64,000 nt of DNA, taken from the NCBI GenBank assembly GCA_025602905.1, contig JAHLKI010000004.1, positions 1,302,001 through 1,366,000 of the forward strand, read 5' to 3'. This DNA is from Phlyctochytrium arcticum (lineage: Eukaryota; Chytridiomycota; Chytridiomycetes; Chytridiales; Chytridiaceae). Under the pieces are notes generated by a model, which worked only from the letters and a program-made list of their open reading frames with translations, was not told the DNA's origin and made no database searches. This document shows, piece by piece, positions 26,290 to 64,000 of the stretch. Numbering within the stretch: position 1 is the stretch's first letter; the number at the start of each line of letters is the position of its first letter. The translations under genes were made by a program, and so were the position numbers.

Positions 26290-26604
26290 CAGTGGGATCG
26301 GGGTCGGCTACTAGAAAGAGAGAGAGAGAGAGAGAGACAATGGACAGATATGCGGCTTCCCAGGCCTCGGTGAGTTTGGGTAGTGTATTCTCGCAGAGGA
26401 AGAGAAAAGTGTACAGTAAAGAACAAGAATACAGATGCGAGACGTGCTTTTATACAGAAGAAAAAGAAAGAAAATGACATCACGTGGAAAGGTCGTCGGT
26501 GGTTGGCTGGAACACCAAGACACTAGGACACTAAGATGTACTGCGCGACGCGTTGCGCAGCAGCGCAGTAGCGCAGTCACTCATCAAATCACGAACCCGC
26601 TACA
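26290..26604 (-). repeat. Gypsy 3' LTR (left)
   Basis: 315 bp. It contains an AG microsatellite near its left end and, at 26412-26418, the heptamer TACAGTA where the sister LTR has only TA. Confidence 0.92.
26412..26418. other. 5-bp transposon-footprint-like insertion (TACAGTA) in the left Gypsy LTR
   Basis: The left LTR reads GTG TACAGTA AAGAAC; the right LTR reads GTG TA AAGAAC (37795-37805). The difference is exactly CAGTA, a duplicated TA plus CAG, as Tc1/mariner-type elements leave on excision. Confidence 0.85.
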
Positions 26605-26752
26605 CCCCCCTCAGACTCGACGGTCTGAGTTCCTGGAAAGAGCGCGAGTCTAAAGATCAGGGTTTGTGTGTCAGCAACAAGATTGAAGTTTCCTTTTACC
26701 AGCGCAACCTCACCAGGCCTCTATATACAGTACCTCTCTCGCCAGACGTATA

Positions 26753-26925
26753 TGTTAAGGGATGCACTGCAACCATCAAGGGAGTTGGAATCAGCTACGG
26801 CTGGATTGGTTACAACGACCGCTTTCCCGTAATTAGATTGAAATGGGAATGATTCTGTCACATATAGAAGGATGAACACATCCTCCCCACTGAATAACAT
26901 TCACTCAAACCCATAATCCCTAACA
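26753..26925 (+). repeat. Copia-1 5' LTR
   Basis: 173 bp, TG...CA. It differs from the 3' LTR at two bases (AGATTGAAATGGG here, AGATAGAAACGGG there). Confidence 0.93.
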
Positions 26926-26984
26926 GGTTCTGAGCCCTGTTAGCGATTAGGAAAAGTCAATCCGACGCAAGAAAGAGTATCTTC

Positions 26985-27812
26985 ACCTACTGAGGACAGA
27001 TTCTTCAACCCGGCCGATCATCTCTACCAGGGCATCCCAAAGCTGACTACCAAGGGTAAAGCTGAGGATGTCAGCGAAAACCTACAAGAATGGCTGGCGT
27101 TCGCGAAGAATTGGAGGAGATTGGCCAGGTCCGAAGGCCAAGTGGAATTGCTACAGAACAAACTTGATAGACATGCAATGGCCCTTGTCGAAGATGCCAA
27201 AACCCCAGAGGAACTCATCGCAACACTCAAGGAAGCCTACGCAGCGAAAGGAACCGATTGCACCGTATTCCTGAAGCTTGTCGGCCTGAAGCAGACTTCC
27301 ACAATCACCATCTATAAACAAGAGTTCAATGAGTTGGTTCGGCAGCTAGAAGAGTCCCTTGTCGATTCTGTTACCTGCGGTCTCTATCTTGCGGGTCTCA
27401 AGGAGGAACTTCAGATCCCAGCCCTCAACGAATATAAGCTTGGCAAAGTCAAGAACCTCCGAGCACTCCAATCGTTTGTAGATTCGTACGAGACCAGAAG
27501 TCCAAGCCAACTCGCCCTTCCACCGACGTAGAGGTCCATCACAACCAGTCGTTCGCTCGCAGCCAATGCGACGTTTGCAACCGAGACAATCACAAAACGG
27601 CAAACTGCTTCTATATCCAGAAAGCGAAGCGTGCTTACGAAGAGCAAGGTCAACGGAATGGTCAGTTTGGCCAGTTCAACAAAGGGTCTCAAGGATTCAA
27701 CAAGCAGCGGGATGGCAAGCGCCAGCGAACTGAATCAGCAAACCATACCACGACCGGAGACGACGACACTTCTGAGGAGCAGGCCATGCACACCTACGAA
27801 CAGAGCGATTGA
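26985..27812 (+). pseudogene. Copia-1 gag, frameshifted
   Basis: The gag domain reads in one frame to 27531 (LQEWLAFAKNWRRLARSEG, CTVFLKLVGLKQTSTITIYK). The CCHC knuckle CDVCNRDNHKTANC is in another frame, so there is a 1-nt shift near 27490. The knuckle frame is the pol frame and is separated from it only by a TGA at 27810-27812. No convincing start ATG was seen; the left limit is approximate. Confidence 0.75.
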
Positions 27813-30803
27813 CTTGCTCCGGCACCGGCCTGGCTCCTAGACACCGAGGCATCCACTACCATCACACCCAACGAAAACGATCTACTCCAAGTCCAACCCT
27901 CCAATAGATCGATTCGTGTCAGTAACAACGAGTGTGTGGTAGCTACAAAGAAAGGGAAATTGCGCCTTCCCCTTCCTTCCTCGGTCGTCGCCTTGCCGGC
28001 ACTTGCGGCGCCTGGTATCTCAACACGTCTCATTTCCGTCGGTCAGCTAGCCTCTCAGGGTGTAGCCTCACTCTTCACTGATCGGGAAGCTATTCTTCTT
28101 CAACAATCCGCGGCTTTCAAGGATGTTCTTCTGTCTCTACCGTCCAAAGATATTCTTGGTCGGTTCCCCATCGCCAGTAATTTCACCTATCCTTTGGTCT
28201 CCTCTCCCGCTTCAGACGACAACAGCCTGATCGCTTTTGCAACAATCCATCGCTCTTACAACACCTGGCACTCGCGACTGGGCCATCCAAGCTTACGCGT
28301 TCTCCGTGCAATGGAGGATCGTGTAATCGGGTACCCCAACATCGATAGCGGGACGCTCCCGGCTGATGCTTCCGCCTGTTTCACTTGCGCACAGGCAAAA
28401 ATGACGGAGCTTCCGTTGGGCGTGGCCGAACGTAAAACGACAAAACCCTTTGAAGTAGTCCAGTGCGATTTTGTCTTTCCACCCAAAATTACGCCTGGGC
28501 CACACACCTGCGCCATGACTATTATCGATCGACACACCCGTTTTGCGTTCACGGAGCCCCTCACAAGCCGACATAAAGAACTCTCCCACAATGCTTTTCT
28601 TCGGTACATCGCGGATGTTGTCCTTGTCAACAAAGGCGCCATTTCTCTTGTTCGCTCGGATAAAGAATTCCTCAACGACTTGATGAAAAAGACACTTCTC
28701 AGTATGTACATCCGGCACGAGACGACCCAGACGGACAAGTCCAGCCAGAATGGAGTTAATGAACGCTTCAACCGGAGCGCAATGACAATCGTCCGCGCGT
28801 TACTCTTTCATGCAGACGATTTGCCCCACCGCTACTGGTCCTATGCCATCCAATACGCCACGGTCTTGTACAACGCTCGCCCCCACTCAGCACTGCCCAA
28901 ATCCATGACGCCATTTGAAGCTTTGACAGGCAAGAAGCCGGACATCTCCAAGTTCCACACGTTTGGCTGTTTCGCCTTCTACTACACCGGCAAGGACAAG
29001 AAGACCGACAAGTTCAGTACGCGGGCTCGTCGTGGGCAATTCCTTGGGTTTCCCACTGCTTCGGATAGCTACTTAATTCTGGATCCTGAGACGGACAAGG
29101 TCATCACTAGTCGCGATGTACGATTTCCGTTTCCCGAAGTCGCCAGCGCTCGCCTTTTAGGCACAACGGTTCACCACGCAAGGGTTGGCCGAGTTCTTTC
29201 CATCTCGGAGGACGTTCCGGAGCCCACCACGTATGCCGCCGCCGTGGACCCCAGCAACCCCGAAGCGCCACTTTGGCGGGCCGCTATCGAATCCGAACTG
29301 TCCTCGCTTGCTGAAAACAAGACTTGGGAATTTGTTGCCAAAGATACTGTGGGTCAACGTCCGATTACTTGCAAGTGGGTATTTAAACGTAAGCGGGATG
29401 CCAATCGCGTTGTAGTTCGTTGGAAAGCGCGCTTGGTTGTTCGTGGCTTTACCCAGCAAGAAGGCCTCGACTACAACGAAACGTTTTCGCCGGTGGTCAA
29501 GATCCAAACGTTACGACTGTTCCTCGCTCTGGCTTTTGCGCTGGGATTTCCGGTTCATCAAATGGATGTGGTGACGGCGTTTCTAAACGGTCTCTTGCGT
29601 GAAACAATCTACATGGTTGTCCCTGAGGGGGTGGACGCCCCGCCCGGTTCTCTCTGTCATCTGCTCCGCTGCTTGTACGGACTCAAGCAAGCTCCTCGCG
29701 AATGGAACCGCCGGCTCCATAAATATCTACTTTCCATCGGTTACCGTGTCAGTTCCGCCGATGCATCCTTGTATTTCCTGTTGGATGCGGACACTCAAGT
29801 TCCCACGGTGCTCATTGCTGTTTACGTCGATGACATCCTTATTGCTACCACCGAGGCTCTCATCGAGGGGGTGAAGGAACAGCTGCGCACCGAATTCAAG
29901 ATGACCGATAACGGATTGGCCAGCTACATTCTTGGAGTACGGCTGACGCGTCAAGACAATGAGTATCTCCTGGATCAAGCTGGATACACCTCGTCAATCA
30001 TCAAGAAGTACATGGGAGACCTTAAAGGACGGGCTACTCACGATACACCAGTTTCGATGACACCACAAGGAGATCCGGACGAGCCGATAACAGCAGATCA
30101 ACCATTTCGAGCAGCGATCGGTGCCCTAATGTACTTGATGACGAGCACAAGGCCAGACATCTCGTACGCGGTTTCAACGGCAGCTCAACAAATGGCAAAT
30201 CCAAGTCACCGAAATTGGTTGAGTGTCATCAGAATCTTCCGCTACCTCCAAAGGACGCAGGACCTAGCCCTACGAATAACAAAGCGCGACTTCACGCAGT
30301 CCCCGGTGACAGGCTTTTCAGATTCCGATTGGGGATCGGATGAAACGTCAAGACGATCACGAACGGGATATGTTTTCTTCTTCGGTAACGGCAATTCGGA
30401 AAGCAACTGTCTGTCCTGGCAGAGCAAGCGACAACCGACAGTGGCTCTGTCGTCAACAGAGGCAGAATACATGGCCGTAACTCAAGCAGCCAAGGAAGCG
30501 CTATGGTATCGGCAACTTCTGCAGGAATTGAAACTGTTACCAAACGAAGCCTCACCAATCAAGATTTTCATTGACAACGAACCTGCCCAAAGATTGGCGA
30601 AAAACCCCGTTGCCCACGACAGAACAAAACATATCGACATTCGACACCACTTTATTCGCGACGCCGTAGAACGTCAAGAAGTCGATCTGGAGCATGTTCC
30701 TACAATCGAAAACACGGCCGATATACTGACTAAGGCACTTCCAAGAATTCAATTCCAAAAGCTAAGGAAACAACTCGGCCTTGTCTCCAGAACAGAAGAC
30801 TAA
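27813..30803 (+). CDS. Copia-1 pol: protease, integrase, reverse transcriptase, RNase H
   Basis: An open frame of about 996 codons, normally the 3' part of a Gag-Pol polyprotein. The protease site reads WLLDTEASTT, so the usual D-(S/T)-G has Glu for Gly and is probably inactive. The GAG-pre-integrase finger is TWHSRLGHPS...CFTCAQAK. Integrase acidic residues are present (VVQCDFVFP, LVRSDKEFLND, NGVNERFNR). Reverse transcriptase includes CKWVFKRKRDANRVVVRWKA and AVYVDDILIATT. RNase H includes GFSDSDWGSDE and LSSTEAEYMAVTQ. All pol domains are in one frame to the stop at 30801-30803, which fits the near-identical LTRs. There is no start codon of its own; expression would need read-through of the TGA before it. 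Confidence 0.9.
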   Translation, partial: LAPAPAWLLDTEASTTITPNENDLLQVQPSNRSIRVSNNECVVATKKGKLRLPLPSSVVALPALAAPGISTRLISVGQLASQGVASLFTDREAILLQQSAAFKDVLLSLPSKDILGRFPIASNFTYPLVSSPASDDNSLIAFATIHRSYNTWHSRLGHPSLRVLRAMEDRVIGYPNIDSGTLPADASACFTCAQAKMTELPLGVAERKTTKPFEVVQCDFVFPPKITPGPHTCAMTIIDRHTRFAFTEPLTSRHKELSHNAFLRYIADVVLVNKGAISLVRSDKEFLNDLMKKTLLSMYIRHETTQTDKSSQNGVNERFNRSAMTIVRALLFHADDLPHRYWSYAIQYATVLYNARPHSALPKSMTPFEALTGKKPDISKFHTFGCFAFYYTGKDKKTDKFSTRARRGQFLGFPTASDSYLILDPETDKVITSRDVRFPFPEVASARLLGTTVHHARVGRVLSISEDVPEPTTYAAAVDPSNPEAPLWRAAIESELSSLAENKTWEFVAKDTVGQRPITCKWVFKRKRDANRVVVRWKARLVVRGFTQQEGLDYNETFSPVVKIQTLRLFLALAFALGFPVHQMDVVTAFLNGLLRETIYMVVPEGVDAPPGSLCHLLRCLYGLKQAPREWNRRLHKYLLSIGYRVSSADASLYFLLDADTQVPTVLIAVYVDDILIATTEALIEGVKEQLRTEFKMTDNGLASYILGVRLTRQDNEYLLDQAGYTSSIIKKYMGDLKGRATHDTPVSMTPQGDPDEPITADQPFRAAIGALMYLMTSTRPDISYAVSTAAQQMANPSHRNWLSVIRIFRYLQRTQDLALRITKRDFTQSPVTGFSDSDWGSDETSRRSRTGYVFFFGNGNSESNCLSWQSKRQPTVALSSTEAEYMAVTQAAKEALWYRQLLQELKLLPNEASPIKIFIDNEPAQRLAKNPVAHDRTKHIDIRHHFIRDAVERQEVDLEHVPTIENTADILTKALPRIQFQKLRKQLGLVSRTED

Positions 30804-30915
30804 TATAGTGTACATAGTTAGGCAGAAGCAAAAGAATCCTGTATCATATTTTTCATCAACTTATCTTTCAAATATCAACATTCTCTTTCTCAAATCGCCT
30901 ATGATGCACATGGAG

Positions 30916-31165
30916 CAACCGTCAACGCTATGTGCGAACAAACGTCAACGCTACGTGCGAACAAACGTCAACGGTACAAGCGAACAAACGGCTCTGCCTC
31001 CACAAACGGTCTCCAGCAAACGTCAACGCTACAAGCGCCAAACGTCCCTGACTGAGTGACTGACATATCCTTCGACAGCAAACGCTCTTGCAGCCAAAGG
31101 TGCAAACGTCCCTGACTGATCGAACGGAGCATAACCTGTCGCAGCAGACGTCAACGCAACTTGCG
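30916..31165 (+). repeat. short imperfect repeats in the Copia-1 3' non-coding region
   Basis: At least eight copies of CAAACGTCAACG or CAAACGTCCCTG, several followed by (C/G)TAC(A/G)(A/T)GCGAA, lie between the pol stop and the 3' LTR. Spacing is about 20-60 bp and irregular. Confidence 0.6.
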
Positions 31166-31280
31166 AACAAACGTTTTGTCTAGCAGATATGGCTTACCTC
31201 AAAACACGAAAAAGCAATCTCAAGATGATCAACTTCAGCCTACGCAGATCCCCACTGCCGATGATCGCAGTGAGGGGGTG

Positions 31281-31453
31281 TGTTAAGGGATGCACTGCAA
31301 CCATCAAGGGAGTTGGAATCAGCTACGGCTGGATTGGTTACAACGACCGCTTTCCCGTAATTAGATAGAAACGGGAATGATTCTGTCACATATAGAAGGA
31401 TGAACACATCCTCCCCACTGAATAACATTCACTCAAACCCATAATCCCTAACA
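31281..31453 (+). repeat. Copia-1 3' LTR
   Basis: 173 bp partner of 26753-26925, preceded by GTGAGGGGGTG, the likely polypurine tract. Confidence 0.93.
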
Positions 31454-32026
31454 GTATATAGATACCACGTGGTGCAAGTGAGCCAGACCGGACACACGCC
31501 AAGACGTCTGGTTATTTGAGTTGTGAAGGGGCACGTATCCAGCAATCTTGCTGTGGCACGAGTGAGTAGCTGTGATTGACAGCTGTCCCGGGACTCGCTT
31601 GCAGATTGTGCAAGTTCAGGTGTGTATGTGTTTCCTTACGTTGCAGGTTATAACGCGTAATAACGGGAAGACCTTAGTCTTGCTGTCCCGGTCTTTCATC
31701 ATCAATGCACTGACAATGCATCCACACGGCTCAGGCTGATCAGGCCTACCAGAGTCCTGACGGGCTAGACGCACCGTCAGCAAGAGGCAACCTTGGATGT
31801 AATCTCAGTGATTTTGAGATTATAGCAACGCGTGCGTTATGTCATGATGCAGGGTGGGAAACCCAAAGAGTGATATCAAACACACTCGCTGCTGTTTGAC
31901 CAGTGTTAACATGTTTGTCATGTTTCGGAATGTTAACAGGCGCATCGGGTCCGTGATTGACGGAGAAACACATGCTGTATTCCTGTTCACCACAACTTAC
32001 GCACTTCTGCGCTTTTTGCGTTGTGA

Positions 32027-36071: not shown

Positions 36072-36187
36072 TTGACGGTGAACCTGGGGTTTGAACTTTT
36101 TCAGTACAACTGGACACAGAGTTGAGGGAGACCGATTCTTTAGAATTGGAAGAATTTACTACAGAAGCTGGTTGAGCTAAATTAAGA

Positions 36188-37602: not shown

Positions 37603-37671
37603 CGTGCAGTAGGAAGAGACAAAGGGGGAAGGTAGTATTGAGGTTCTAGTAAGCAACAAGGAGTGCTACCA

Positions 37672-37985
37672 TGCAGTGGGATCGGGGTCGGCTACTAGAA
37701 AGAGAGAGAGAGAGAGAGAGAGACAATGGACAGATATGCGGCTTCCCAGGCCGCGGTGAGTTCGGGTAGTGTATTCTTGCAGAGGAAGAGAAAAGTGTAA
37801 AGAACAAGAATACAGATGCAAGACGTGCTTTTATACAGAAGAAAACGGAAGAAAAAGACATCACGTGTAAAGGTCGTCGGTGGTTGGCTGGAACACCAAC
37901 ACACTAGGACAATAAGATGTACTGCGGGACGCGTTGCGCAGCAGCGCAGTAGCGCAGTCACTCATCAAACCATGAACCCGCTACA
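37672..37985 (-). repeat. Gypsy 5' LTR (right)
   Basis: 314 bp, the partner of 26290-26604. It has one more AG unit in the microsatellite and the uninterrupted TA (37798-37799) at the position of the 5-bp insertion in the left LTR. Confidence 0.92.
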
Positions 37986-39604: not shown

Positions 39605-42470
39605 CTAGAAATGATAGAGCGGGCCCGAATTAGCTAGCAGGTTTACCTTACACCAGGCTTCGAAGTTCTTGATTCCCATCCCGGTTCGAAACTGACCCAT
39701 CGCCATTGAAGTCTTCTTCTCCTCAAGCAACTGGGCTGCTTCTTCTCCTGTGCACCCCTTCTGTCTCATCACCTCCTTGACCGCCCTGTAGATGAAGTTT
39801 CTTCGGCTGAAAAGAGACTTGTTCCGTGGTGATTTCCTCCATCGCGTCCCCCATTGCTCCTCCATGGCCTTCACCCATCCAGATGGGAACTACACGCTCA
39901 TGGTCCCGCTGAAGCTCAAATGTTGGAATTGGTGGATGTGACGCTGGCGGGGCGGAGGATGTGTTGCCGGCGACGGAAGTAGCACCAGGAGTAGCGGTAG
40001 GAGTAGTGGTAGGAGTAGCGGTAGAGGTAAAGGGATTGGTCGGGGCATGGCTGCTGATGGGTGTGGGGGGAAAGGGTGAAGGTGATGCGGGGGTTGCTGC
40101 CATTGGTTGTTGATGTGCGGGAGGCGGCCACGCATATGGCATGTTTGGGAAGGGCGAAGATTGTGGTGGTGGGGCTATGGCGGTTGGGAACAAGGGGAAG
40201 GATAGAGCCGCGCCCGAAGCCGGAGTCAGTGAAGAGGACCCAGTGTTACCACCGCATACTTGCTGCATGAAGCCGCTCGCCATCATCGCCATCTGGTATC
40301 CAAAGTGAGCCATCCCGAGGCGTATGTCGTGCATGTCCTGCTCTTGCTGCGCGTTTGCCCTTGTGACTGCCATCATGAAGGCCTGGAAAGAAGTCGTACC
40401 ACATGTCAACATATGATTTTGAGAGACCGTCATCAAATTCACATACCATTTGTTGCACTTTTTCCGCGTCTGCCGAAATCGTGAGGTGGTCTATCTTCTC
40501 AGTCAGAAGCGTAATCTGCGCTTCCAGCATTCTGCTCTGCGCGAGACCCGCATCCCGGGAAACGGTGATTGCTTCGGCGATCACCGGCGCGCTTTGCCTC
40601 AAGGTTAACTGTGTGGGGTCCTCCGCTTGTGCCGATGCCGCTTCAGATGTCCGGGCAAAGGTTTTGTAAAGATCGCTTGTCCAAACAGGGTGCAGCCAGA
40701 TGGGGTGATTCGGATACGTCTTTTTGAATTCGACTGAGTCTTGCAAAAGAACGATCCGGAGGTGTTTCAAAAGGTCAAGAAAGCCTTTCCCAGAAATGTG
40801 TTGCGAGCTCTTTGTGAGATGAATAGAGTCAGTCTTAATCATATCGACTATGAAAGCAACATGCTCATTGCTTACCAATGCCTCCGCGTATTGTTTGTCC
40901 ACAAAGGGGAAGATTTTTTCCTGAAGTGCCGTTGGCGGGATCGCTGCCGCCCGGGCCAAGAAAAACGAGCCTGCTTTCTTTGGCCATCCAGAGACTACGC
41001 GCATGGTTTGCTGTGGGAGATTGTTGGTGTATGATAGGTTTTGCATCGTGGGGTTCCATAGTCCCTGTCGCTGAATTTGGGAGGCATCGGCCCCCCTTTC
41101 GTCGGCAATCTTGGCAGATGCCCCTCGGGTAAGGTGAGTGATTTTGGAAGTGTTGATGTTGCAAGCTAGTAAGGCTGACTTCGTCCAGCGTCGGTGGGCT
41201 TCGTAGGATACCATGGCGCTGTGGGCCGCCTTGCGTCTGGGATGGGGGTTTCGATAAGCTTTCAAAGATCCCTCCAACAACAGAGTTTGCTTCGTGTGAC
41301 CCTCGCCGGGGAGCAGTACTACCAAATCTTCTTCTTTGTCCCGAACTTCCTGATCCTGCTCCAAATGCAACTCCTCCTCACCAACATCCTCATCCTCCAT
41401 ATCCAAGTCATCCCCCACGTCCCCCTCCAGCTCTTCCTCATCTTCCCAGTCATCCGCATCTGCTTCAGCAGTACCCTTTCCCCTTCCCACCCAAGTGCCG
41501 TTTTTTGATAAAATACAGTAGATCAAATAAAATGTCTTTTGGTCGTTGGTGTTTGGCGGAGCCTCCCGCTCGATTTCCCATCTCCAGAAGAAGTAAAGCG
41601 CAATCGAGAGCATAGTGCAAGTGTCGACCTCTTTCCCCCTCATGAGGCCCACATGATCGGTCCGGCCAACCTTGTTTGTTTTACCCTCACGAACCGTCAG
41701 GCCCAACGCCCAGCACTCGGCGGGCCGCTCACCGTCCAGCTTTCTCGCCCAAATATGCTTGAGTTGTAAACGGCATACTAAAGAATAAATGAAAGGAAAA
41801 CAAATAGATGCGTAAGACCACGGTCTTCAAGATGCGCTGAAAACACAAGCATTTGCTTAACGTTATCGCTGCGGAGAAACGTAGAATGTTGCCACAAGAA
41901 GCCTGCCCGGTCCCGGAGTGCGTTCCCGTGGTTCCTGCGTCCCGGCTGATGCATCTAGTAGTCCACGAGACGCTTCAAGTCATCCGTCGAGTAGGTGTCA
42001 AGCGCCGTCCCAATGCTTGCGTCATGTAGTTGCTCTTTGGCGATCCTGGCCTTCTGCTGTTGAAAGCTTCCGACTAGCTTCTTGATGGTCAAGCTGGTGG
42101 GGTGGGGCAAGTCGTGCACCTTCATTGCCTTTTGCTGTTGCCAAAGGTCCACCACGGCCGCAAGATAGATGCTGATGGTTGCAAATGTCATGGCGTTGCC
42201 ACCGTCGCTGCCGTCCTTGTTCTTCTTGCGCCGCTTTAGCCCTCTTTCGATAGCTCTCCTGTCCGACTACAATGATCTCAGTGGCATTGTCAGTATCGTC
42301 TGCTTGGGCTTGAAGGACAACACGATCTTGGTCTTCAAGACTTGGTTCAGGACTGACAGATTTGTTCAGATCCAGAGCACGGATCACATTGTCACCCTCA
42401 ACTTCGTCGCCTGGAACAGGAGGCCGAGGGCCAGAAGTGGCCCTGAGCTCCTCGAATCCGGCCTGCAATC
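39605..42470 (-). pseudogene. Crypton tyrosine recombinase with GCR1_C domain, decayed
   Basis: Minus strand. The N-terminal exon region (about 42470-41955) includes VVDLWQQQKAMKVHDLP and TALDTYSTDDLKRLVDY, with one frameshift near 42250. The catalytic Arg is in WQHSTFLRSDNVKQM (about 41830). The main frame 41706-40246 holds REGKTNKVGRTDHVG, MLSIALYFFWRWEIE, an acidic insert (WEDEEELEGDVGDD), the H-x-x-R box ITHLTRGASAKIADERG, QGLWN, and the candidate nucleophile Tyr in LSYTNNLP. LLKHLRIVLLQDSVEF matches the Crypton at 15577. A Pro/Thr-rich linker follows, then a GCR1_C domain (KAMEEQWGTRWRKSPRNK, FSRRNFIYRAVKEVM) in a different frame, so there is a second lesion near 39870. This is the same lineage as 15577-17695 and differs from 2837-5301. 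Confidence 0.82.
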
Positions 42471-52217: not shown

Positions 52218-52295
52218 ATCACTACCTCATTCATTTTATCTTGATTTCATTTTTGTTTCAGAGTTGGTTTTTGTACATAGTTACAAGTCTGACCC

Positions 52296-52311
52296 CAGCG
52301 CTTCCGCGCTG
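52296..52311. repeat. hairpin 3' of the Helitron gene
   Basis: CAGCGC TTCC GCGCTG, a perfect 6-bp stem, about 150 bp beyond the helicase stop on the minus strand. Helitrons end with a short hairpin followed by CTRR. Here the downstream minus-strand sequence gives only CTAT, so this is a weak candidate for the terminus. Confidence 0.3.
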
Positions 52312-52461
52312 TTGTCAAAGACACAGAAAACACAAAAGAAGAAGACAGGACAAACGGAGACAGGAGAGAAAAAACATGTAGAAATGAACAGAAGAACAGA
52401 GGTACTAATAAGCTAGAATAAGTGGTCTAACAGTAAGTTGAGTTTTCTATAAGTTGATAAG

Positions 52462-55400
52462 TTAGGTTAAGTTGTCAAGAAGTTCAGTAAAGACAACAGT
52501 ATGTGTAAATGGAGGAGCGTCCTTCTCGAATAAGAGTAGGATATCAGACGAGGCCCTTACGCGGGACAAAGCCGTATAGAGCTGACCGTGTGCAAAAACA
52601 GAAGTGCAAAGATCTACAACAATCCGGTTCAGCGTCAGTCCTTGGCAACTGTTGAATGTTGAAGCATATCCCAGGCGTAAAGGGAATTGTTTCCGCTTGA
52701 TGGAGTAGGTGGAGCTTGTCGGTTTGAAAATGAAAACAAATCTGGGGATAGAGTATGTGGATGCCGGGTGATTGGGATTTGGATTGGGAAGGGAAACGGT
52801 GACAGTGTGGGGGAACATGGCAAGAATCTTGACTCTAGCATTTTTGACCAAGCCGAGCTCAACAGAAATGTTACGCATCAAAGTAGCTACCATTCCCACT
52901 TTGAAAGACAAGCAGTGACTCGGAACACCAGGAAAACGGAGTGCGGAAATGTAATCCGGATTACAGATGGGATGATCATCAGCCAGGTGTTCATTTTCAA
53001 CGACATCATTGAAAGAATAGTAGTGTTTGGGCTCCCCGGGGAAGGCATCAAAAAGCAAATGGTTAAATTCGTCGACGTGGATGTTAAGGCAAGAAAGAAA
53101 GGAGCATTGGGAGGGAGCGGCGGAGGTGGAAACGTCGGGTGAAAGGGATGGGAAAAGGAACTGTTTACATTCCTCTATATCATCAGTGTGGGCCAAGAAG
53201 GACAGGTCCAGATATTCGGAAGGAGAAACGCCGACATGGTCCAAAAAACAATCGAATCGTTCGTCATTTGCGGCGCGAAAGGTTTGTCGAAGGTGGGAGA
53301 TTTGGAAAAGGGGCCACAAATGGGAGTTCCGCACACTCAATGCAACGACCTGAGCCCTGCCGGCATTAGGTACAACAGGAGCAACCTGACGCCAATCGCC
53401 AACCCCAGTGAATGCGCAGCCTCCAAACGGCAAATCCAAGCCCTTGATTGATCTCATGAGGTTATCGGCGCACTCGACAACGGGTCCCGAACCCATGGGA
53501 AGTTCATCCCAAATATTGAGCATTGCGGCATTCAACAGAGCTGCCCGGTTCGTCCCCAGCCCAACCGAGGAACACAAATTCCCACCAGAGTCGGCCTCGA
53601 TGGGAATCTTGAACAAAGAATGAGCGGTGCGACCCCGTTCGTAGTTCGAAGCGGCCGTTGCCGTGGTAGCAACGATTAGAACAATGTGCCCAGCAGCCCG
53701 CAGATGGTTGGCGATGAGATTAAGTAGGTATGTCTTCCCGGTTCCAGCTTTGCCTTGCAGGAAATGAAGATTATTTGCGGAGCTGTCGTTCACTCCAGTG
53801 ACTATCCGATCAAAAAAATCGCGCTGCTCGCCATTCAAAGTTGAAAGGGCGAGGGAAACCTCACGCAGGAGGTCAGGCTGACGTCCCTCAAAAGCGTCTC
53901 GCTCGTTTTCCAAGTCACGAGAAACAATATTGGGTAGTGGTAGGCCGAAGTCAGCGCATGTTTGGGAGCTTGCAGCGAAGTGCTTGTTAATGTCCAGGAG
54001 AGCGAGATTGTAGCATTTTCGAACATTTCGGTGATGCAAGTCCAGATAGTCAGCCGCCAAATCATCCTTGAAACGCATCCAGAGTGATGGAGCAGGAGCA
54101 CCGTTCAAAACCAACTGTCCGCAAAGGAAGCGCAGCTGAGAAGGCAAGCGCAAATCGGCAATGGCATCCTCCATGGCCACTGTGGGCTCCGAGTCGTTGC
54201 TAAAAAGATTCAGGGCGTAGGCGGCCTCTTGGAAGGTAGGATAAATGACATTGGCAACTGTGCGAAGGTTCTCATACGAACGGCCGGGCATAACTTGTAG
54301 TATGGAACGAAGATAGAAAAGTTCCCCCAATTTGGCACCAATGGTCTGAATCCTGCGCACATGAGGAGATTGAGATGTACGGGTAGAGATGACCCATCGA
54401 GAGCCAGGGTGTAGGGACTCTAGATACTGGTTGTTGGAAGGCGCTTCTCCAGACCAAGGCTTGTGGGTAAACCTCTCGTAATAATCCAGATAGGTGATGT
54501 TGTCGAAAAGGTCCTCTGGTGGGCGGAATAGTAGGTAGCGAGTCAGGGAGGAAAAGGTGGAAGACTCTTTGTTAGAGCCGTACTTATAGAATTTCGCACC
54601 CGCCAAATGACAGACTAAAGTTTCAACCGCCGGAATTTTTCAAGAAACAGAAAACTGAAAAATCCGCCAAGCGCACTCAGGGGCGGAAAGGTAACGGCCA
54701 TTGAGGTAATCGTCAATTTCATCAGTGGGCCTTGCGCAGTCGGATGAAATGTTGTACTTGACTCTGTCCGGGCCTTTGTATAAATATATGTACAGGTACA
54801 TAAACACGTGCACTGTGGAGGCAATTTCGACATTGACGTGGCAGTCCAATTCCAACAGAAGCAGCGGTGAGTAGGGAACGACGCAAGCGTCCGCGACAGA
54901 CCGGCGACGGTACTGAACGTACCCTCGATCGTCGACCCAGGTAACCGGATTAACAGGTTTCGGATACCCGTAGATGCATTTACCATCCCTGAGGCATCTC
55001 GAAGAATGGGAGGAACTGTGGATCATGAACTGTTTGACCTTCGCCGCGAGTAGGACACAGGCAGGGTCGGTACCTGTGGGAAGCTCAGCTGAGATGACGG
55101 AGTTGATGGAGGAGGGAGGTAGTTCGGGGTTGCACTTTAAGATGATGTGTGCGTGGGGAAGACCCCGCTTTTGGAACTCGACAACCCAGACAATGTAGAC
55201 GACTTGGCCAAAGACAGTCCGCAGAAGAGAGATGCATCTGGAAAGTCTTGATTTGAAAACACGTACCACCAATGCAGGCTGGTCGAACGCTGTTTGGCCG
55301 GGGAGCAACTTCGAAGTAATCTCCGGCCATTTGGGGTTGGCGGTCATTGTCACAAAGAAGGAGGGAGGGCCGAATTTTTGAGCCAGAGTTAAAGCGCAGG

Positions 55401-56753
55401 CCACCTGGTCACTGCACCATTTCTGAGAGCCGTGAAAGGATTTGGGAAGGAAGAGATGTGATTCTTCCTGGGGTCCACCATCTACATCATCGTTCATAGA
55501 ATGGCGATTGTTGAAGATGAAATTGAGTTTTTGGTCCTCAGTCCTGGAGAACATGTCCACCAGGTATTCGCCGGCCAGACGGCCCAACAGAGAAAAGCGC
55601 GGTTCTTGCAATAGTCTGATGCGATACCAAATAATCTGAGAAACCCCGAAGGAATTGTCCATTGTCCAGCCAGGGGTGCCATGGGGGAAGAGAATCGGGT
55701 ACTGCAATGGTTCGTAATGAGAGCTCAAAATTGGCACGAATGTGGGAGTGGCATCAGAGTGCATCCATACTACAATGTTGCGATCCACCATAGTAGCCGA
55801 GTCGGGAGTGCCAATGACAGCCGCGATTTCAGAGTTGTGAGTGTCTTCATTTAAATGAATTGAGTAATCCGGACGGAGTTGCTGGACGTTGCCCGCAACA
55901 TGAACGGCACGCGAAAATTGGGACACGTATGGATTGACATCGTCCAGAAGGTTTTCAAAGACCGCCACAATGTTTGAAGGCACATTGTAGTTGCTGGCGA
56001 CAGAGTAGCGCTCTTCCGCATCATACAGAAACCAATGCATTGAATGCCCCGGAGAAGCGAGCGGTAGCATGCGGTGGTAAACCCTCCCAGATATGCACAC
56101 TGAAGAAGGACCCCGGAAATTTGCGAATTTGCCCGTAACACCGATTGCCGTGAAGGAAAAGAGGTTATTAAGGCGGCGGGACATTTGTGAGACGTTGGCG
56201 GTAGTCAGTACGTTGGCGATAGGTGGAGGATAGGGAGGGAGACGTGGAAGAGTCCACCGACCAGCGTTGCAACAGAAAGCTTGCCGTTCCGAGGACAGCA
56301 GGAAGACACCGCAGAATGAGCAGGGCAACAAATTCCAGACAGCGTTGTGGCGCGAAGGTAAATGAAGTACACAATGTGCGGACCACCATTGGGGAATGCG
56401 AGCTGGAGAATGACATTGGACCTGGATGAAGTATACTTAAAATCTGGAAGTGTGCAGTGAAGAAGATGAGTAATATTTACGTGCGCAGTAGATGTGTGGG
56501 AAGGCGCATGGATCCCGGAAGAGGAAAGCGAATGAGGAGAATGGGCGGCAAAGGCCGACGGAGGCGAAACAGAGGTTTGCAAGGAAGATGTAGACTGTAA
56601 CAGAGTCAGTGATGCGCTGCAGACCGTGGGGAGGAAACAAATACATACGGACTGAAGGACAGATGAAATCATGCGTTGCTTCTTCAAACGGCGTGTTTCG
56701 GAAGCCCTACGATGGATTTCACGGCGCTTGGCAAGGTAAGTTTGGGCGTCCAT
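52462..56753 (-). pseudogene. Helitron Rep-helicase (RepHel), intact apart from one premature stop
   Basis: Rolling-circle transposase. Start ATG 56753 (MDAQTYLAKRREIHRRASET). Two introns near the 5' end (about 56646-56595 and about 56484-56405) give in-frame joins. A Cys-rich region (LLPCSFCGVFL...CCNAGRW) precedes the Helitron helicase-like/Rep region with the HUH motif GLPHAHIIL and the Tyr motif YLYIYLYKG. At 54642-54640 an in-frame TGA follows AWRIFQFSVS; the same frame continues with conserved-looking sequence, so the stop is a single lesion. The PIF1-type helicase has Walker A FLQGKAGTGKTYLLNL, Walker B NIWDELPMGSG, GVGDWRQVAPVV, and motif VI QLYTALSRVRASSDI. It ends at 52462. An OB-fold-like gene is divergently placed at 58028. 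Confidence 0.9.
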
Positions 56754-56889
56754 GGTGGGGGGAGGAGGGGGGGAAGGGGGGGCTACAGATGGATGCGGGG
56801 GAAGAAGAAGGGAGTGGCCATTTTAAAGGGTTCAGGGAACAGAGAGGCCGTAACTGGACAGTTAAGCATGAAAGAAAAAATAACAGAAT

Positions 56890-57900
56890 GAACCGCAGCG
56901 CAGATAGGTACATCGGAAAGTAAACAGCCACCCATTCAAAATGAACATGGACGTGACAGTGAAACGCTCATAAAATTAACATGGAAACAACAGCGAAACG
57001 CCCATCAAATTTATGAGACATGAAAGAAATGGCGTTGAGAAAAATGCAATATAAAGAAACAACCGCGAACGCCAAGTGGGTCAATGTGTTAAGTCTTCCA
57101 AAGAATGAGGAGGAAGATAGAATTGATGAAGGTAATCAGATACCGGCAAACACGCGTCGCACGGTTAGTGGGAAATTGACGGAAACATCCCCCAAGTGGT
57201 AGAGAAAGATATTACAAACAGAGTGGACAGAAGCATTCAGAAAGCAGATTTGGGTAATAAGATAAACAGCAAGGAAGAAGGAAATAAGAGGAGAGGAGCG
57301 AGATAGATAATTAGGACGAATGGAAACACAACAGATGGTATGAAGGTCTGGGAATTGGACGACAACCATATTGAAGTTTGAAAAGGAGTAAAGAGCAGAG
57401 ATAAGATCGGCAATGTATAGACGTAGTGTGTTTATGAGAATGAAATAGTTTCGGGAAAAATGCAATAGAAATAAACATGAAAGAATGAAACGCAGCGGAG
57501 ATAGGATCATCGGAAGGTAAAGAGCCACACATTCAACGTGAATATGGAGCAAACGCCCATCAAATCAAGGGGCGTGAAGGAAATGGTGTTGGGAAAAATG
57601 CAGTAGAAAGAAACATAACAGTATGAAACGCGGCGGAGATAGGTTCATCTAAAGTAAAGAGCCACACATTCAAATCAAATCAATGGGCGTTAAGTAGTGG
57701 GGAAAAATGCAATAGAAGGAATGGACCCCGAACGCCAAGTGGGTCAATGTCATCAAAAGAATGAGGAGGAAGATAGAAATGAAGAAGGTAATCAGATACC
57801 GGCTCACACGCGTGAAGGCGATGCAGATTTGGTGGCAAATTGACCGAAACAGCCCCCAAGTGGTAAAGAAAGAAACAACAAACAGAGTCATGAAGAAATG
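56890..57900. repeat. large imperfect repeats in the Helitron spacer
   Basis: Three partial copies of a unit of about 250-350 bp. Shared blocks are ATGAA(A)C(C)GC(A/G)GCGnAGATAGG, GCCACnCATTCAA, CGAACGCCAAGTGGGTCAATGT and GAATGAGGAGGAAGATAGAA. Others include GAAGGTAATCAGATACCGGC and CCCCCAAGTGGTA. Copies lie at about 56890-57240, 57480-57600 and 57625-57890. No coding signal. They occupy the spacer between the divergent RepHel and OB-fold genes. Confidence 0.7.
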
Positions 57901-57921
57901 AAGGGGAGGGACGGAAAAAGG

Positions 57922-57929
57922 TATAAAAA
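57922..57929 (+). promoter_or_regulatory. TATA box of the OB-fold gene
   Basis: TATAAAAA 99 nt upstream of the ATG at 58028, preceded by A/G-rich sequence. Confidence 0.55.
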
Positions 57930-58027
57930 GAAGGCACTGTCGGGCGGCCCTCCTAGCGAAACATCTTCAACAAAAGACAGTAACAACAATCACCGCAAAG
58001 CACCACTTGAAGCACACACAACTCGGA

Positions 58028-58804
58028 ATGTACACCATCACTAGCACATGTTTTGTCACGGACATCATCAAGATCGACCGACTCTCATACGACATTAGTG
58101 TCATCATCCCCATCGGAAACGCGGAAACCGCCGAAGTCGTTGTCAATGTATTCGCATGGCGCCAGCTCCAGAAACCTATCATCGGGGACAACTACTATCT
58201 GATAGCCAGCGCGGCATATGAGCCCAACACCTTCAAAGCAAGCGCGTTCAGCGGCAGCAAGATTTGTATGGATGACTACGACAGCGGCATATTAGATGCC
58301 GTGGCAGCAACCTTCAACCTCACAGGGAAAGTGTCCGGAGTACAGGGGGACACAGTTGTTGTCCAGTACAACGTATGGCATGACGTGGATCGGCGGGAGA
58401 TAGAGCGGCGCTGCACCATCAGCATGTCGGGAAAGTACTGGGAAAAAAGGAAGAACAAAGTGAAGGCAGGGCTGATCGTGAACGTGATTGGAACATTGGG
58501 GGACGGAGGGGTGTTGAAATCGGAGCTGTTCTGGATCCCCACTGGGCAGTCAGATGTGGACCGGCTGATCGTGGCACCGGCGACACCAACCTCGACGGCG
58601 GGAGAAGCGGTGGCATCTTACTTTGGAAAAAGGCTCAGTCCCAAAAGATTGAGGACGGCAGAGGAGGCCAACACGGGCATGGTGCAGGTAGAGGACAACA
58701 TGTTCGCGACAGCAACCAGCAGCCAAGCCGGCCCCAGTGTTGTCGGCGAGGACTTGGAGGAACCGGTGACACCACCTCGAAGCAAATGCGGCCGCCCTAA
58801 GTGA
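58028..58804 (+). CDS. OB-fold-like single-strand DNA-binding protein, Helitron-associated
   Basis: 258 codons, intact, no introns. ATG 58028 was chosen because it lies 99 nt below a TATA box and begins the first beta strand (MYTITSTCFVTDIIKIDRLS). The pattern of alternating hydrophobic strands (YDISVIIPIGNAETAEVVVN, FNLTGKVSGVQGDTVVVQYN, VKAGLIVNVIGTLGDGGVLK) fits one or two OB folds, like replication protein A subunits. It ends in a Ser/Thr/Pro-rich tail with a basic end (RSKCGRPK). Many plant and animal Helitrons carry RPA-like genes that could protect single-stranded intermediates. The divergent arrangement with RepHel supports the same role here. Fold and role are inferred; no diagnostic motif is certain. 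Confidence 0.6.
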   Translation: MYTITSTCFVTDIIKIDRLSYDISVIIPIGNAETAEVVVNVFAWRQLQKPIIGDNYYLIASAAYEPNTFKASAFSGSKICMDDYDSGILDAVAATFNLTGKVSGVQGDTVVVQYNVWHDVDRREIERRCTISMSGKYWEKRKNKVKAGLIVNVIGTLGDGGVLKSELFWIPTGQSDVDRLIVAPATPTSTAGEAVASYFGKRLSPKRLRTAEEANTGMVQVEDNMFATATSSQAGPSVVGEDLEEPVTPPRSKCGRPK

Positions 58805-59054
58805 TCGAAGAACCGGCCGAAGGGAACTGGGAAAGCCGTAGCGGAGACAGATGACGAAGACAGTGATATGTAAACAGTTCTGAAATATTTGAAATACATG
58901 TTCATAAGAATGAGATAGTTACAATTTCGTAGCGAAGCTTTTACAAAGTCGATACAGGTCCGTGTATACAGGCAAAGGGCAGCGGGGATGGGAATGACAG
59001 GAGCAAAGGTGCAGGGTAAGGAGCTGTGTAAGGTGAAATGCAGTGTCGAAACGG

Positions 59055-59096
59055 GCCAAGTCCGATAGGCCAAGTCCGATAGGCCAAGTCCGATGC
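59055..59096. repeat. three tandem 14-bp repeats
   Basis: GCCAAGTCCGATAG repeated three times (the last copy ends G instead of AG), between the OB-fold gene and the virus-like block. Confidence 0.8.
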
Positions 59097-59240
59097 AGAT
59101 GAAGCAAGAGGGGAAGGAAAAAGCAGAACCGAGGACACGGAATACGGGGTGAAGGTAGGGTTCCCAGTCACGGGGGTTGATTCTGAAACATTTTGAAGTT
59201 GAAATCTGGTTTTCTGAAAATCATAAATAGGATCAACAAC

Positions 59241-60144
59241 ATGAGATACAAAGACATTGAAGACATTTTGAGCAAACTCCCAAAGGACGTGTTGCTGAGT
59301 CCCTACGGGAACGAACTTGGAGATGGATCCTTAATTCTCCATTAAAATAAAGGGCTCTCATGTAAAAAAGGCGACTTGAAATCCATTGCGCGACTCTTTG
59401 ACTTGGAAGATCTTGAAACTGCAATATTGATAATTCCAAATATATTTTGTCACCACCGTTCATTTGCAAAACATAACAGTTACGGCTTGAAGCATGTGTA
59501 CAAGAATGTAGGAGGTCGCCACATAAAGAACGGTACATTTGTGTTGGCAATGTTGCTTTGCGATTATACGGTCTCGGTCAAAGGTGGATTGGTGAATGCA
59601 AAAATCAAATGTCGCGTATTGAACAAAGAACACTTATCAGCAAAATACTACATTTCAATGCAAAATGATCCAATATCGCGATATTTAGTTGATACTAGAG
59701 AAATTGCCATCAAATGTCCTTTTAACACAGGATGGCAACGAATACGGTATAGATTTGTTTAAAGTCGAAAAAACGATGAGTTACTCGTGTGATAAGAGTG
59801 ATACATATAAAAACGCCATCCTATTCAATCCATATGACATCGAAGAGGCGATGAATATTATTCCACAAATATTTGAAAAAACACATAGTAAAGTAAAACT
59901 TGCGCATTCACGGAATATTTACATAGACATAATAAGAAGGCCAATTTCATTAGGAGATTGGGTCATCGCCCTGATTTGCCTAGATTACAAGGTGTATTTC
60001 AAAAATAATTGTGTAGTACCAGAGTGTTACCTTAGAACTCGAACTGTTCATGGAAAAAGAGTCCATACAATTAAGAAACAATCAGAGAATATATATTCAC
60101 AGAAATCGTATGGGACAAAGGTTATGCGATTTGATTCTTCTTGA
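59241..60144 (+). pseudogene. tandem pair of related small proteins, virus-like, broken
   Basis: Two similar units. Unit 1 (ATG 59241) has DILSKLPKDVLLSPYGNELG, then an in-frame TAA at 59343-59345, then AILIIPNIFCHHRSFAKHNS and VLAMLLCDYTVSVKGG. Unit 2 (probable ATG 59658, in the frame of unit 1) shifts frame by 2 nt near 59690. It has KLPSNVLLTQDGNEYGIDLF, EEAMNIIPQIFEKTHSKVKL and ISLGDWVIALICLDYKVYF. The shared order (KLP.nVLL....GNE, then IIP.IF, then .LA/IAL.CLDY.V) shows duplication of one domain. A pattern of this kind (Lys-His, then NG-x-F-[IV]) occurs in uncharacterised proteins of giant and related viruses, from memory. Function unknown. Confidence 0.55.
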
Positions 60145-60165
60145 TTCTATCGATAGAACGGATGA

Positions 60166-60173
60166 ATATAAAA
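60166..60173 (+). promoter_or_regulatory. TATA-like element
   Basis: TATAAAAG 40 nt upstream of the small ORF at 60206, in otherwise AT-rich DNA. It may serve both that ORF and the overlapping endonuclease. Confidence 0.35.
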
Positions 60174-60205
60174 GGACGAGGTGTTCCCGACTCCCCGCCC
60201 CCAAA

Positions 60206-60319
60206 ATGCATTCCCAACATATATTCGTCATCCTCGTATTCACCCAGTTCTTTGGAATAATAGTCCTTTCATTTCTCGTGCTCTTTCTCACCAGTATCAT
60301 TCAGTCACTCGAGACATGA
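60206..60319 (+). CDS. small membrane protein, 37 aa
   Basis: ATG 60206, stop TGA 60317-60319. After a short head (MHSQH) nearly the whole chain is one hydrophobic helix (FVILVFTQFFGIIVLSFLVL), so it is probably a single-pass membrane peptide. Its stop overlaps the start of the endonuclease gene (ATGA), a compact arrangement typical of viruses. It is short, so it could be chance, but the TATA-like element and the overlap support it. Confidence 0.4.
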   Translation: MHSQHIFVILVFTQFFGIIVLSFLVLFLTSIIQSLET

Positions 60320-60842
60320 ATATTCCAGAAATAACGATTACGACTGTGGACGGTTTGGAGGTTTATCCAGATCGCGGATTGATCAAGAATCTCAAGACTG
60401 GATATTGTAACAAAACCGGAGAATTTATAGGGAGTGATAATGGAGCAGGATATTTACATTTCGGGAACAATAAGAAAATGATCAGAAACCACCAATACAT
60501 CTATGAGACATTTTACGGAATCAAGTTGAAACCTGGAGAACAAATAAATCACATTAATCATATTCGAACGGATAATAGAATCGATAACTTGGAAATTGTG
60601 ACGAATCAACAGAATTCACAATGGCGCGAAAAGCAACTGAATAATACCTCGGGGTACAAAGGAATATACTGTATTGGGACAAACAACGCAAGAAATGGCG
60701 TGCCAAAATTAGTTTCCAGGGAAAAAAGTGTCACATCGGATACTTTGATATCAAAGAAGAGGCGGCTAGAGCGTATATAGAGAAAGCCCAAGAGTTGAAT
60801 GACAAATATGGCATGATGTACAAACTCTATGAGATAGAATAG
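60316..60842 (+). pseudogene. HNH endonuclease with AP2-like C-terminal domain, interrupted by a 5-bp insertion
   Basis: ATG 60316. The HNH core is in the middle: HQYIYETFYGIKLKPGEQIN, then HINHIRTDNRIDNLEIVTN with a trailing Gln-Asn. The C-terminal domain has the AP2-type DNA-binding pattern of phage and giant-virus homing endonucleases. Its first part (NNTSGYKGIY) is in the starting frame. Its second part (KKWRAKISFQGKKCHIGYFD, EEAARAYIEKAQELNDKYG) is in another frame and ends at the stop 60840-60842. The frame change lies exactly at TACTGTA (60667-60673). As it stands the protein would run into unrelated residues after the HNH core and end at 60780. Such enzymes are usually mobile themselves. 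Confidence 0.8.
60667..60673. other. 5-bp footprint-like insertion (TACTGTA) in the HNH-AP2 gene
   Basis: The two halves of the AP2-like domain differ in frame by exactly these five bases. Confidence 0.85.
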
Positions 60843-60871
60843 TCTTTTTCTGTAATGTGTAAAGTAATATA

Positions 60872-62874
60872 ATGTCGGGCATTAATAGTAGGAATGCGTC
60901 CGGGTTGCGTACTCTAAATGACACTATATTAGAGAATAGTTTCATCAGTGGGCAATTGAAAGGCTCGGATGAATATTCCTCTATAAACGTTGCCAAATTA
61001 TCAAATGAGAATGGCGAGTTACTTGTGAATGCCATAGAATCAAATGATCCGATTGAATCAACGATTCAAAACGGCCATGATAATATCTCATTGAATATCG
61101 ATTCATCCCGCCTCGAATTAGACACAAATAATGAATTGTCCACTATAGATGCCACATATTCGTCTCCAATAGAATACAATGATCACAATGTCTCACTAAG
61201 AATCAATGATGATACATTATATACAAATGATGAACATGAGTTACAGGTGAGAAGTCCAGATCCTCCAGAATTAGATTCTCCTCTTTTTTATAACACTTCG
61301 GGAAAGATCGAACTGCAATATTCAAACCATTTTCAGGACAATAGTGGGTATTTTGAAGATGGTACACTATTTGCGAAAGGATTGGAGCTAAAAATTGCCT
61401 CCCCTCTAAAATACGATGCATTCAACTCACATCGCTTGACTTTGAATATCGATGATGATACGCTTGATATTCAAAGTGGAAAATTGACCGCCGTCATACC
61501 AGAGAAAATGGTGTTTCATGAACCACTAGACGAGATTGATAATGAAGTTCATTTGAGAATCGATGAAGATTCACTTGAAATAAATGATGGTGTTCTCAAG
61601 GCCAAAAAACAAGATGTGTCCAATTCGCTCAAAGGTGCCGGGGCGATTTCTGTATACTGTATACAGATATATCTGAATATCTTGACGGCTCATTGGTAAA
61701 GCTAGACGTCGACCATAATAACTTTCAACAGACGGGAAACAAATTGGCATTCCGTTCCACTGGCTTAGGAGAGATACCTTTTGACAGTGGTTTGAGCGGA
61801 TTGAATCGTACTTCAAACTTCACGTATAATGAGACGCTAAACGAACTAAATGTTGGCCATGTTTCTCTCAATCCGAATGCGACACCTTCTTCTAATGAGG
61901 CGACAACTGCCTCCTATGTTCAAAATCTCTATTCAGGCGGTGGCGCAGTATCAATTACTAATCAAGTTGTCGAACTAAATACCGATGCAACATTGGCGTT
62001 GGACGTAAATTCTAGTCTCGGAGTGAATGTCAGCCCGCTAGTTGACAACAGTACCATACGAATCAATTCTGGAGGTAAAATAGCGTCGGGTTTGTTGTTC
62101 CAACAGGCGAATGGGCTCGGTATTAATAACAATGACGTTTTCTTAGATATTCAAACACAAGGGAATCTCGAATATGATGGCAACATTCTATCCGATACTA
62201 GAACATTTGGACAAGGACTCCATGAAAACTCAAGTCATGAAGTCTCGCTTGATCTTTCGGTTTCAGGGGCACTGGAAATGAATTCTACCAAAACAAACAT
62301 CACCGAGAATCTCACTTGTTCCAATGGAATCACGCGAGTCGGCAATGACATTAGAGGCTCCTATTCAGCAGGGAACAACATATCCATAAGCAGATCAACC
62401 ATTTCATGCACTTATGACCCTGAACCAGAGCAGCCATATGTGGGTGGCAACGGAATCACTGTCGCAGGGAAGACGATTTCGAATACCATTTCTCTTGTAG
62501 CTGGCACCGGTGTCATTGTAGTTGGTACGCCTGGTGGTCCATATACGATATCTTCAATTGATACATTCCAACAGAAAAAAGCAGAGGACGCACCTAATGA
62601 AGAAACAACCGAGGGAAGTGAATCAAAAGTTCTCAAAAGTGGCGGGGGTGATATTATTCAAGTGACCGGAGGCTTGACCGGGGTATTGTCAGGATTGGGT
62701 AGTATCTTGGGAGGCGCGGGGGCTGCCATTGGAACAGCCTCATCTGCAATAGGCGCGATTGGTGCCTCCGGTGGGCTACTAGGAGGCCTTGCTGCAACGG
62801 GCGGATTCATCAGTATTTTTGGCCGAGAACGTGAGCGGAAACAAGACATCAACGGCGATCCTATACTAGATTAG
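60872..62874 (+). pseudogene. fibre-like beta-repeat protein, interrupted by a 5-bp insertion
   Basis: ATG 60872; about 665 codons if counted across the break. The first half repeats a strand-turn-strand unit: VSLRINDDTLYTNDEHELQV, LTLNIDDDTLDIQSGKLTAV, VHLRIDEDSLEINDGVLKA. That resembles the triple beta-spiral shafts of trimeric viral fibres. The second half has similar looser repeats and then a Gly/Ala-rich hydrophobic segment (about 62640-62830: LTGVLSGLGSILGGAGAAIG and following) and a charged end. The frame changes at TACTGTA (61655-61661). The head or attachment function is unknown. Shaft-like structure is inferred from repeats only. No sequence is reconstructed here. Confidence 0.65.
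61655..61661. other. 5-bp footprint-like insertion (TACTGTA) in the first fibre-like gene
   Basis: The upstream and downstream frames of the gene differ by exactly these five bases. Confidence 0.8.
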
Positions 62875-62903
62875 AGCCCGGATCAAACGTGGTCATTGTC
62901 ACA

Positions 62904-64000
62904 ATGCCGCATAACACAGGATGTGATACAACGAGATTACTTTTCGACACCCCTCCGGACTGCTCCTATTTAGGTATAGCAGGTGAGTACCCTCAGCAGG
63001 CGGTTAACTGTCAAATGCTCTCAGAATACGACAATCTCATTATTAAACCATCCACAGTGAGCCTAGTTAGCGATCTGGTGAGTCCTATCAGCGAGACACT
63101 TGGTATCCAAGGTTCATTGATTGAATATATAGAATCAGATCTTATCAAAAGTTACTGTACCAACCAAAGATCACAGGAGACAACAAGATCCGATATTCCT
63201 TGATATCCGGTACCCCAAATTTGAGTGGGTATGCAATTACTTCAGATATCGCAGCAACTTATGTCTCTAATACAAATCTAGGAACGACACTATCTGCGTA
63301 TGTGTCAAACACATCATACGCGGCCGGTATGGCCTCGAAACAGAACATTATTACTAGTGGAAGCAAACTTGACTATGCATTGCTATCAAATGTACCAGAC
63401 CATACAATTTACGCTCTTAATTCGGCATTAACGAGTGAATTGGCAGGAAAAGTATCACAAAGTACCTATGATACAAGACAAACAACGATTGACACTGCTT
63501 TGACATCCAAAGTTTCGCAAAGTACCTATGATACAAGGCAAACATTGATTGACACAAACATAGCCAGCAAAGTCTCACAAACATCATATGATACGAGGCA
63601 AACAACCATTGATACAAACATATCCAGCAAACAGAATATCATCACGTCAAATATTCTACTAAGTGGTGTGGATACGACAACTACGACTCTTTTGACCGAT
63701 GATTTCACAACAACGCCAACAGGAATGTTGACAGGCAATGCAACGCATGATCCAACAAATATGTACGTAGCACTTCAGGAAAATAACCAGACATATAGCA
63801 ACGGGTCTCTGACTTATAATATTCCAACACTAGGGAGATATTGGACACTTCAATGCGATTTATTATATTCATCTTTTCGAAATGATGAAGGTATTAGTGT
63901 GAATCTCGGAGGCTACATCGCATCGTTCTCAGGATATTTTAACTATACTCGTCTCTACACACCAGATGGCACGTTTACGGAAACTGCAGCATCATTACCT
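62904..64000 (+). pseudogene. second fibre/tail-like repeat protein, 3' end outside the window
   Basis: ATG 62904, 29 nt after the previous stop. The first frame is open to 63203. The frame used from 63160 onward is fully open to the window end. The switch lies at TACTGTA (63153-63159). From about 63450 to 63640 a 20-residue unit (KVSQSTYDTRQTTIDTALTS type) repeats three to four times, a pattern of trimeric tail-fibre stalks in phages and giant viruses. Beyond it the sequence becomes more globular (GRYWTLQCDLLYSSFRND, GYIASFSGYFNYTRLYTPDG), perhaps a head domain. The 3' end is not in the window. Confidence 0.65.
63153..63159. other. 5-bp footprint-like insertion (TACTGTA) in the second fibre-like gene
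   Basis: Upstream frame open to 63203; the frame used downstream is open from here to 64000. They differ by exactly these five bases. Confidence 0.8.

Follow-up and report, generated by a model that had tools for sequence, protein, structure and literature searches.

The window analysed here (the whole 64-kb stretch, C4:1302001-1366000, of a 31.48-Mb genome in 91 contigs) raises the question of whether its TACAGTA and TACTGTA heptamers are scars left by transposons that have jumped out, and, if so, which transposons made them and over how much of the genome. The original prediction named five such scars, at 26412, 44090, 60667, 61655 and 63153. The window contains 15 heptamers of this class, against 4.6 expected from its trinucleotides (Poisson 9e-5) and 8.4 expected at the mean density of the genome (4,110 in 31.48 Mb; Poisson 0.024), and of the 32 TAnnnTA classes in the window this one shows the largest excess (3.2x). 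Thirteen of the 15 could be compared with paralogues, a count that leaves out 6452 and 51349, and 11 of these were 5 bp longer than the TA-only state, as judged by DNA alignment for ten of 12 heptamers and by protein frame for one (44090). The paralogue search for 51349 gave no copy covering the position. Paralogue alignments showed that the heptamers at 14003 and 16446 are not gains, the first being present in the copies too and the second differing from its copies by substitutions only. All five heptamers of the original prediction were found in place, and comparison with paralogues or reading frames showed their 5-bp gains relative to TA to be real. The five therefore stand, but the true set is one of eleven, with the addition of 10509, 17907, 18964, 22872, 26726 and 41514. 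These scars, two degenerate ones and an empty sister site, none with an assigned strand, are as follows:

10509-10515, scar TACTGTA in a repeat with a 99.4% identical copy; both copies compared (L088 and L094) are 5 bp shorter.
17907-17913, scar TACAGTA; L089 and L090 are 5 bp shorter and L091 has a further 3-bp change.
18964-18970, scar TACAGTA; L089, L090 and L091 (3/3) are 5 bp shorter.
20428-20434, degenerate scar TGCTGTA, common to 31973; six of six other copies have TA only.
22872-22878, scar TACAGTA; the sole copy, L092, is a net 5 bp shorter with the gap split 3+2, and the direction is unpolarised.
26412-26418, scar TACAGTA in the gypsy long terminal repeat (LTR) 26288-26604; the five bases are absent from 16/16 other LTR copies.
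26726-26732, scar TACAGTA between the gypsy LTR and a nested copia element; six of six copies are 5 bp shorter.
31973-31979, second window copy of the degenerate scar; TA only in the same six copies as for 20428.
37672-37985, sister LTR of the gypsy element, with an empty TA site at 37798-37799.
41514-41520, scar TACAGTA upstream of an NDC10_II match in the frame 40249-41826; L099 (77%) and L100 (74%), 2/2, are 5 bp shorter.
44090-44096, scar TACAGTA at a frame change of a copia element, on frame evidence.
60667-60673, scar TACTGTA in an HNH-type frame; L034/L035 (80%) are 5 bp shorter.
61655-61661, scar TACTGTA in a fibre-like frame; five paralogous places are shorter by five.
63153-63159, scar TACTGTA, the weakest case, with a single paralogue, L041 (65%).

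The gains were specific to the motif. Within window alignments at >=65% identity, with the window's own loci left out, a counterpart 5 bp shorter was found for 10 of the 12 CAG/CTG heptamers and for 1 of the 64 other TAnnnTA heptamers (Fisher 7e-10), and this lone exception, 22867, overlaps scar 22872. Indel calls made blind to the motif gave the same picture: at >=85% identity, all six distinct 5-bp insertions were CAG/CTG at TA (five exact, one with a single-base change), whereas none of the five 6-bp and none of the five 4-bp insertions fitted the motif; one of the 4-bp set is the 26412 event, viewed via copies that have an additional A. With the threshold lowered to 70% identity, the proportion was 6/7. 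A gap was passed over in these calls if another gap lay within 10 columns, if an alignment end lay within 20 or if its flanks were poor; for this reason 22872 and 26726 fall outside the motif-blind six and were judged by copy alignments instead. Neither the 5-bp difference seen with L002 at 70% identity nor the complex one at window position 14443 (77%) is a scar. Five scars, 297 substitutions and 21 gap openings were counted over 9,303 aligned bases in window segments selected for holding heptamers, with all indels included. Seven further regions were compared, two of which served 41514, the other five being without a scar; seven additional copies had none either, and a 5-bp gap at 79% identity (TCCTGTA versus TA, L098/L106) was left uncounted.

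What these comparisons reveal is the pattern of a Sleeping Beauty-type footprint, TAC(A/T)GTA opposite an empty TA, as a property of this motif and not of 5-bp gains in general. The paralogues have TA only, which speaks against the seven bases as the ancestral state, and the gains at TA, far from lacking a preference, are nearly all CAG/CTG, both as the original prediction would have it. It is barely conceivable that the heptamers arose by chance or slippage and that the paralogues lost five bases between two TAs: 14003 and 16446 are no gains, and the direction is unpolarised where a site has one paralogue, but the TA state is common to several independent copies at 26412, 26726, 18964, 61655 and 41514, and the absence of a 5-bp shorter state for the other TAnnnTA heptamers contradicts such a loss, so chance heptamers were rejected on the paralogue alignments and the 10/12 versus 1/64 contrast. 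We conclude that the heptamers were very probably left by the excision of cut-and-paste transposons of the Tc1 type, with CAGT...ACTG ends. An element of this kind would insert at a TA and duplicate it, and the transposase would then cut the element out but leave three of its end bases; the CAG/CTG overhangs, once rejoined by end joining, would yield TA-CAG-TA or TA-CTG-TA. The position of the cut and the route of repair are presumed here by likeness to Sleeping Beauty.

One case lies in the gypsy element, which is bounded by the LTRs 26288-26604 and 37672-37985 and a target duplication, AGAAT. The five bases at 26412 are missing from all the other LTR copies, the sister included, and are therefore a derived gain; the empty sister LTR, put forward in the original prediction as proof of this case, is thus joined by the rest of the 16 copies. 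The gypsy element, which bears the scars at 26412 and 26726, also harbours a nested copia element (26748-31459), the LTRs of which (26753-26926 and 31281-31454) are 99% identical and have GTATA flanks. For the other copia element, no paralogue covering 44090 was found at the DNA level. Its gag-side homology runs in one frame to ~44078 and the Pol_BBD side starts from ~44095 in the next frame, whereas six of six related copies, chosen from 77 matches, continue in a single frame across this point. The break is thus placed where five bases explain it, as claimed, and a programmed copia frameshift was rejected on the continuity of the same six copies.

Two large minus-strand frames, neither with a Pfam match, lie in the repeat at 10300-14203, of which C5:619965 and C4:161789 have 99% identical copies. 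This repeat is enclosed by 106-bp inverted repeats (8497-8602 and 15371-15476), which are 98% complementary and 6.8 kb apart. The minus-strand frames at 15580-16623 and 40249-41826 have GCR1_C and NDC10_II domains, and we take them to be Crypton-like. The copies with TA only opposite the degenerate scars at 20428 and 31973 are L010, L012, L015, L016, L022 and L025. The reverse case was also encountered, L092 having TACAGTA where window position 22230 has TA.

The AT-richer, virus-like insert (window ~57900-64000), with HNH-type and adenovirus-fibre-like frames, holds three of the scars. A 3.3-kb part of it matches 28 stretches of the genome, itself included, and most of its frames could be assigned to no named family. 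The 5-bp gains predicted here were borne out by shorter paralogues in one distinct alignment at 60667, five places at 61655 and one paralogue at 63153. At 60667, L034/L035 are two places with the same alignment, and L044 (69%) shows no clean 5-bp difference. The paralogues at 61655 are L036, L038/L039, L042, L049 and L055, with the gap split in L038/L039 and L049, and L041 at 63153 is five shorter, with the gap split 4+1 and one continuous frame.

The original prediction called for a transposon family with CAG...CTG ends, and intact, recently inserted copies of such elements are present in the genome. A PF13358 profile search of the genome gave 29 places, including two related families of intact Tc1-type elements, A and B, with transposases 75% identical to each other and the ends TA-CAGTGACT[A/T]CC...GG[T/A]AGTCACTG-TA, hyphens marking the element boundaries. 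A 17-base end pattern, present 23 times, picks out nine two-ended copies. Family A is represented on C25 and on C61 by copies that are 100% identical over 1611 bp. Contig C83 matches C4:943000-947400 exactly on either side of a family A element, and has a clean single TA in the element's place; the TA target is duplicated, with one TA at the C83 empty site and one on each side of the element on C4. The absence of the element from C83 may be read as a sign of recent insertion; together with the 100% identical copies, this difference between twin contigs makes up the signs bearing on transposition of A and B, all of them drawn from sequence. The transposases have PF01498 (Tc3-type HTH) and PF13358 (DDE_3) domains with a D-D-34-E signature, and match chain 5cr4_A (Sleeping Beauty SB100X) with E values of 6e-55 and 2e-62. 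In the Sleeping Beauty IR/DR group, each terminal repeat contains binding sites as direct repeats. In family A, and likewise in family B, the subterminal repeats are inverted relative to the terminal ones, so these families are relatives of Sleeping Beauty outside the direct-repeat definition of that group.

It is likely that families A and B, rather than an extinct family with the same ends, made the scars. This attribution falls short of proof because no site filled by an element in one copy and scarred in its counterpart was met by chance among the copies compared. Certain observations, this one included, weigh against the excision reading itself: only about nine two-ended copies with these exact ends are present in the genome, the other copies sampled seldom carry a scar (1 in 126.9 kb), 22872, 60667 and 63153 each depend on one distinct paralogue, no clean five is seen in L091 at 17907 or L044 at 60667, and the differences at L002 and 14443 do not fit the motif. 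A third Tc1-type family, C (ends TA-CTCCTCTG), has two copies, L075 and L076 (C6:833900 and C28:205800), which are 99.7% identical. This family, with its TA-CTCC ends, may be a donor; the corresponding TACTCTA/TAGAGTA class is represented by one heptamer in the alignments, with no gain. We consider it unlikely that the scars come from other CAG-ended, TA-targeting elements (pogo/Tigger-like, MITE or an extinct Tc1 family) instead of A and B. The residual A and B copies are few, the pogo-type profile PF03184 is found at 20 places in the genome, and Tigger-like elements with TACAG ends are reported from another genome in the available text of PMC4678618. However, among the ten PF03184 loci and the other loci sampled, TACAG...CTGTA ends (16/20 bases matching) were found in only six elements, all of family A or B, and the best pogo-like family ends in GAG-TA. 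The search for short non-autonomous elements covered one 17-base end pattern. The near-identical pogo-type (PF03184) elements L064-L067 and L070 have frames of 383 to 560 residues.

If the scars are footprints of Tc1-type excision, their distribution bears on a further claim, that a CAG...CTG family has been excising often in this genome. The element family and the motif-specific gains support the claim, but "often" does not follow, since the scars are skewed to the window copies and the heptamer excess elsewhere is mild. At >=85% identity, six scars were found in 17.2 kb of the window versus one in 126.9 kb elsewhere. In two polarised blocks, the window copies have four scars to 46 private substitutions (about one scar per 11 or 12), and the other copies none to 232 (p 0.0009; 0.043 without the distant copy L091); these counts exclude an alignment-end artefact, there being 9 private window substitutions in the corrected alignment, which gives the same p 0.0009. 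The heptamer excess, 3.2x in the window, is 1.67x in other loci, versus 1.15x over all classes, and ranks fifth of 32 there, once the window, overlapping and transposon loci (22 of the 105) are set aside. Given the skew to the window and the mild excess elsewhere, a genome-wide mutator is only possible.

The skew may reflect a regional hotspot near the C4 contig end, local hopping, relaxed selection or the choice of the window for its scars. Whether the scarring is a regional phenomenon, tied to the contig end, to local hopping or to relaxed selection, rather than the work of a genome-wide mutator is, in our judgement, an evenly poised question. All three contrasts between window and elsewhere speak for a hotspot. 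However, scars were the reason for picking the window, many of the copies sampled elsewhere are young, near-identical or coding, and the genome count of 4,110 exceeds the window expectation of 4.6 per 64 kb scaled up, codon use being uncontrolled. Genome-wide, TAGACTA occurs 1,578 times and the reversed control 5,751 times, but these counts carry little weight beside the 4,110, because stop codons deplete the TAG control in genes. We would suggest only tentatively, and with some doubt, that Tc1-type excision is a leading source of small insertions in this region, a few elements repeatedly breaking retroelements and integrated virus-like DNA; if so, the motif-tagged scars would be a map and clock of past jumps.

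This kind of event is well known; what is unusual is its local density with internal controls. The available text of PMC3432063 gives the Sleeping Beauty footprint in human cells as TAC(A/T)GTA, as does that of PMC4378557, whereas PMC2874221, in the part accessible, prints it as TAG(T/A)CTA; we found no TAGACTA heptamers in the alignments. The scars resemble those of Sleeping Beauty in having TAC(A/T)GTA at a former TA, and the A and B transposases match SB100X, but here the genome is a natural one and excision is read from its sequence alone, and the subterminal repeats of A and B are inverted, those of Sleeping Beauty direct. Footprints of 0-3 bp are given for the related ZB element in the available portion of PMC7913693. 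As in a comparison of rice genomes (PMC4423477, available text), excision is recognised from filled, empty and scarred sites. Only eight of 94 DNA transposon excisions are called "perfect" there, whereas the scars here have the clean 5-bp form, although messy excisions would escape the present method. The internal eliminated sequences of Paramecium are likewise TA-bounded with Tc1-like ends, TAYAGYNR (PMC3464196, accessible part), but they are removed precisely; ciliate-type elimination was rejected because, according to the same text, it leaves no extra bases. No paper on a native genome with an equally dense footprint record was found in the literature searched, of which coverage was partial.

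This genome thus offers a native, apparently recent Sleeping Beauty-like family together with a dense record of likely excisions, with empty-site controls. It would allow the rate of excision to be measured against point mutation, and would put to the test whether local hopping and scarring cause retroelements and endogenous virus-like DNA to decay. A further lesson is one of caution, since clustered frameshifts in such genomes may have one common cause. Elsewhere in the window, the minus strand at 52465-56436 carries Helitron-type frames with Helitron_like_N and PIF1 helicase matches.
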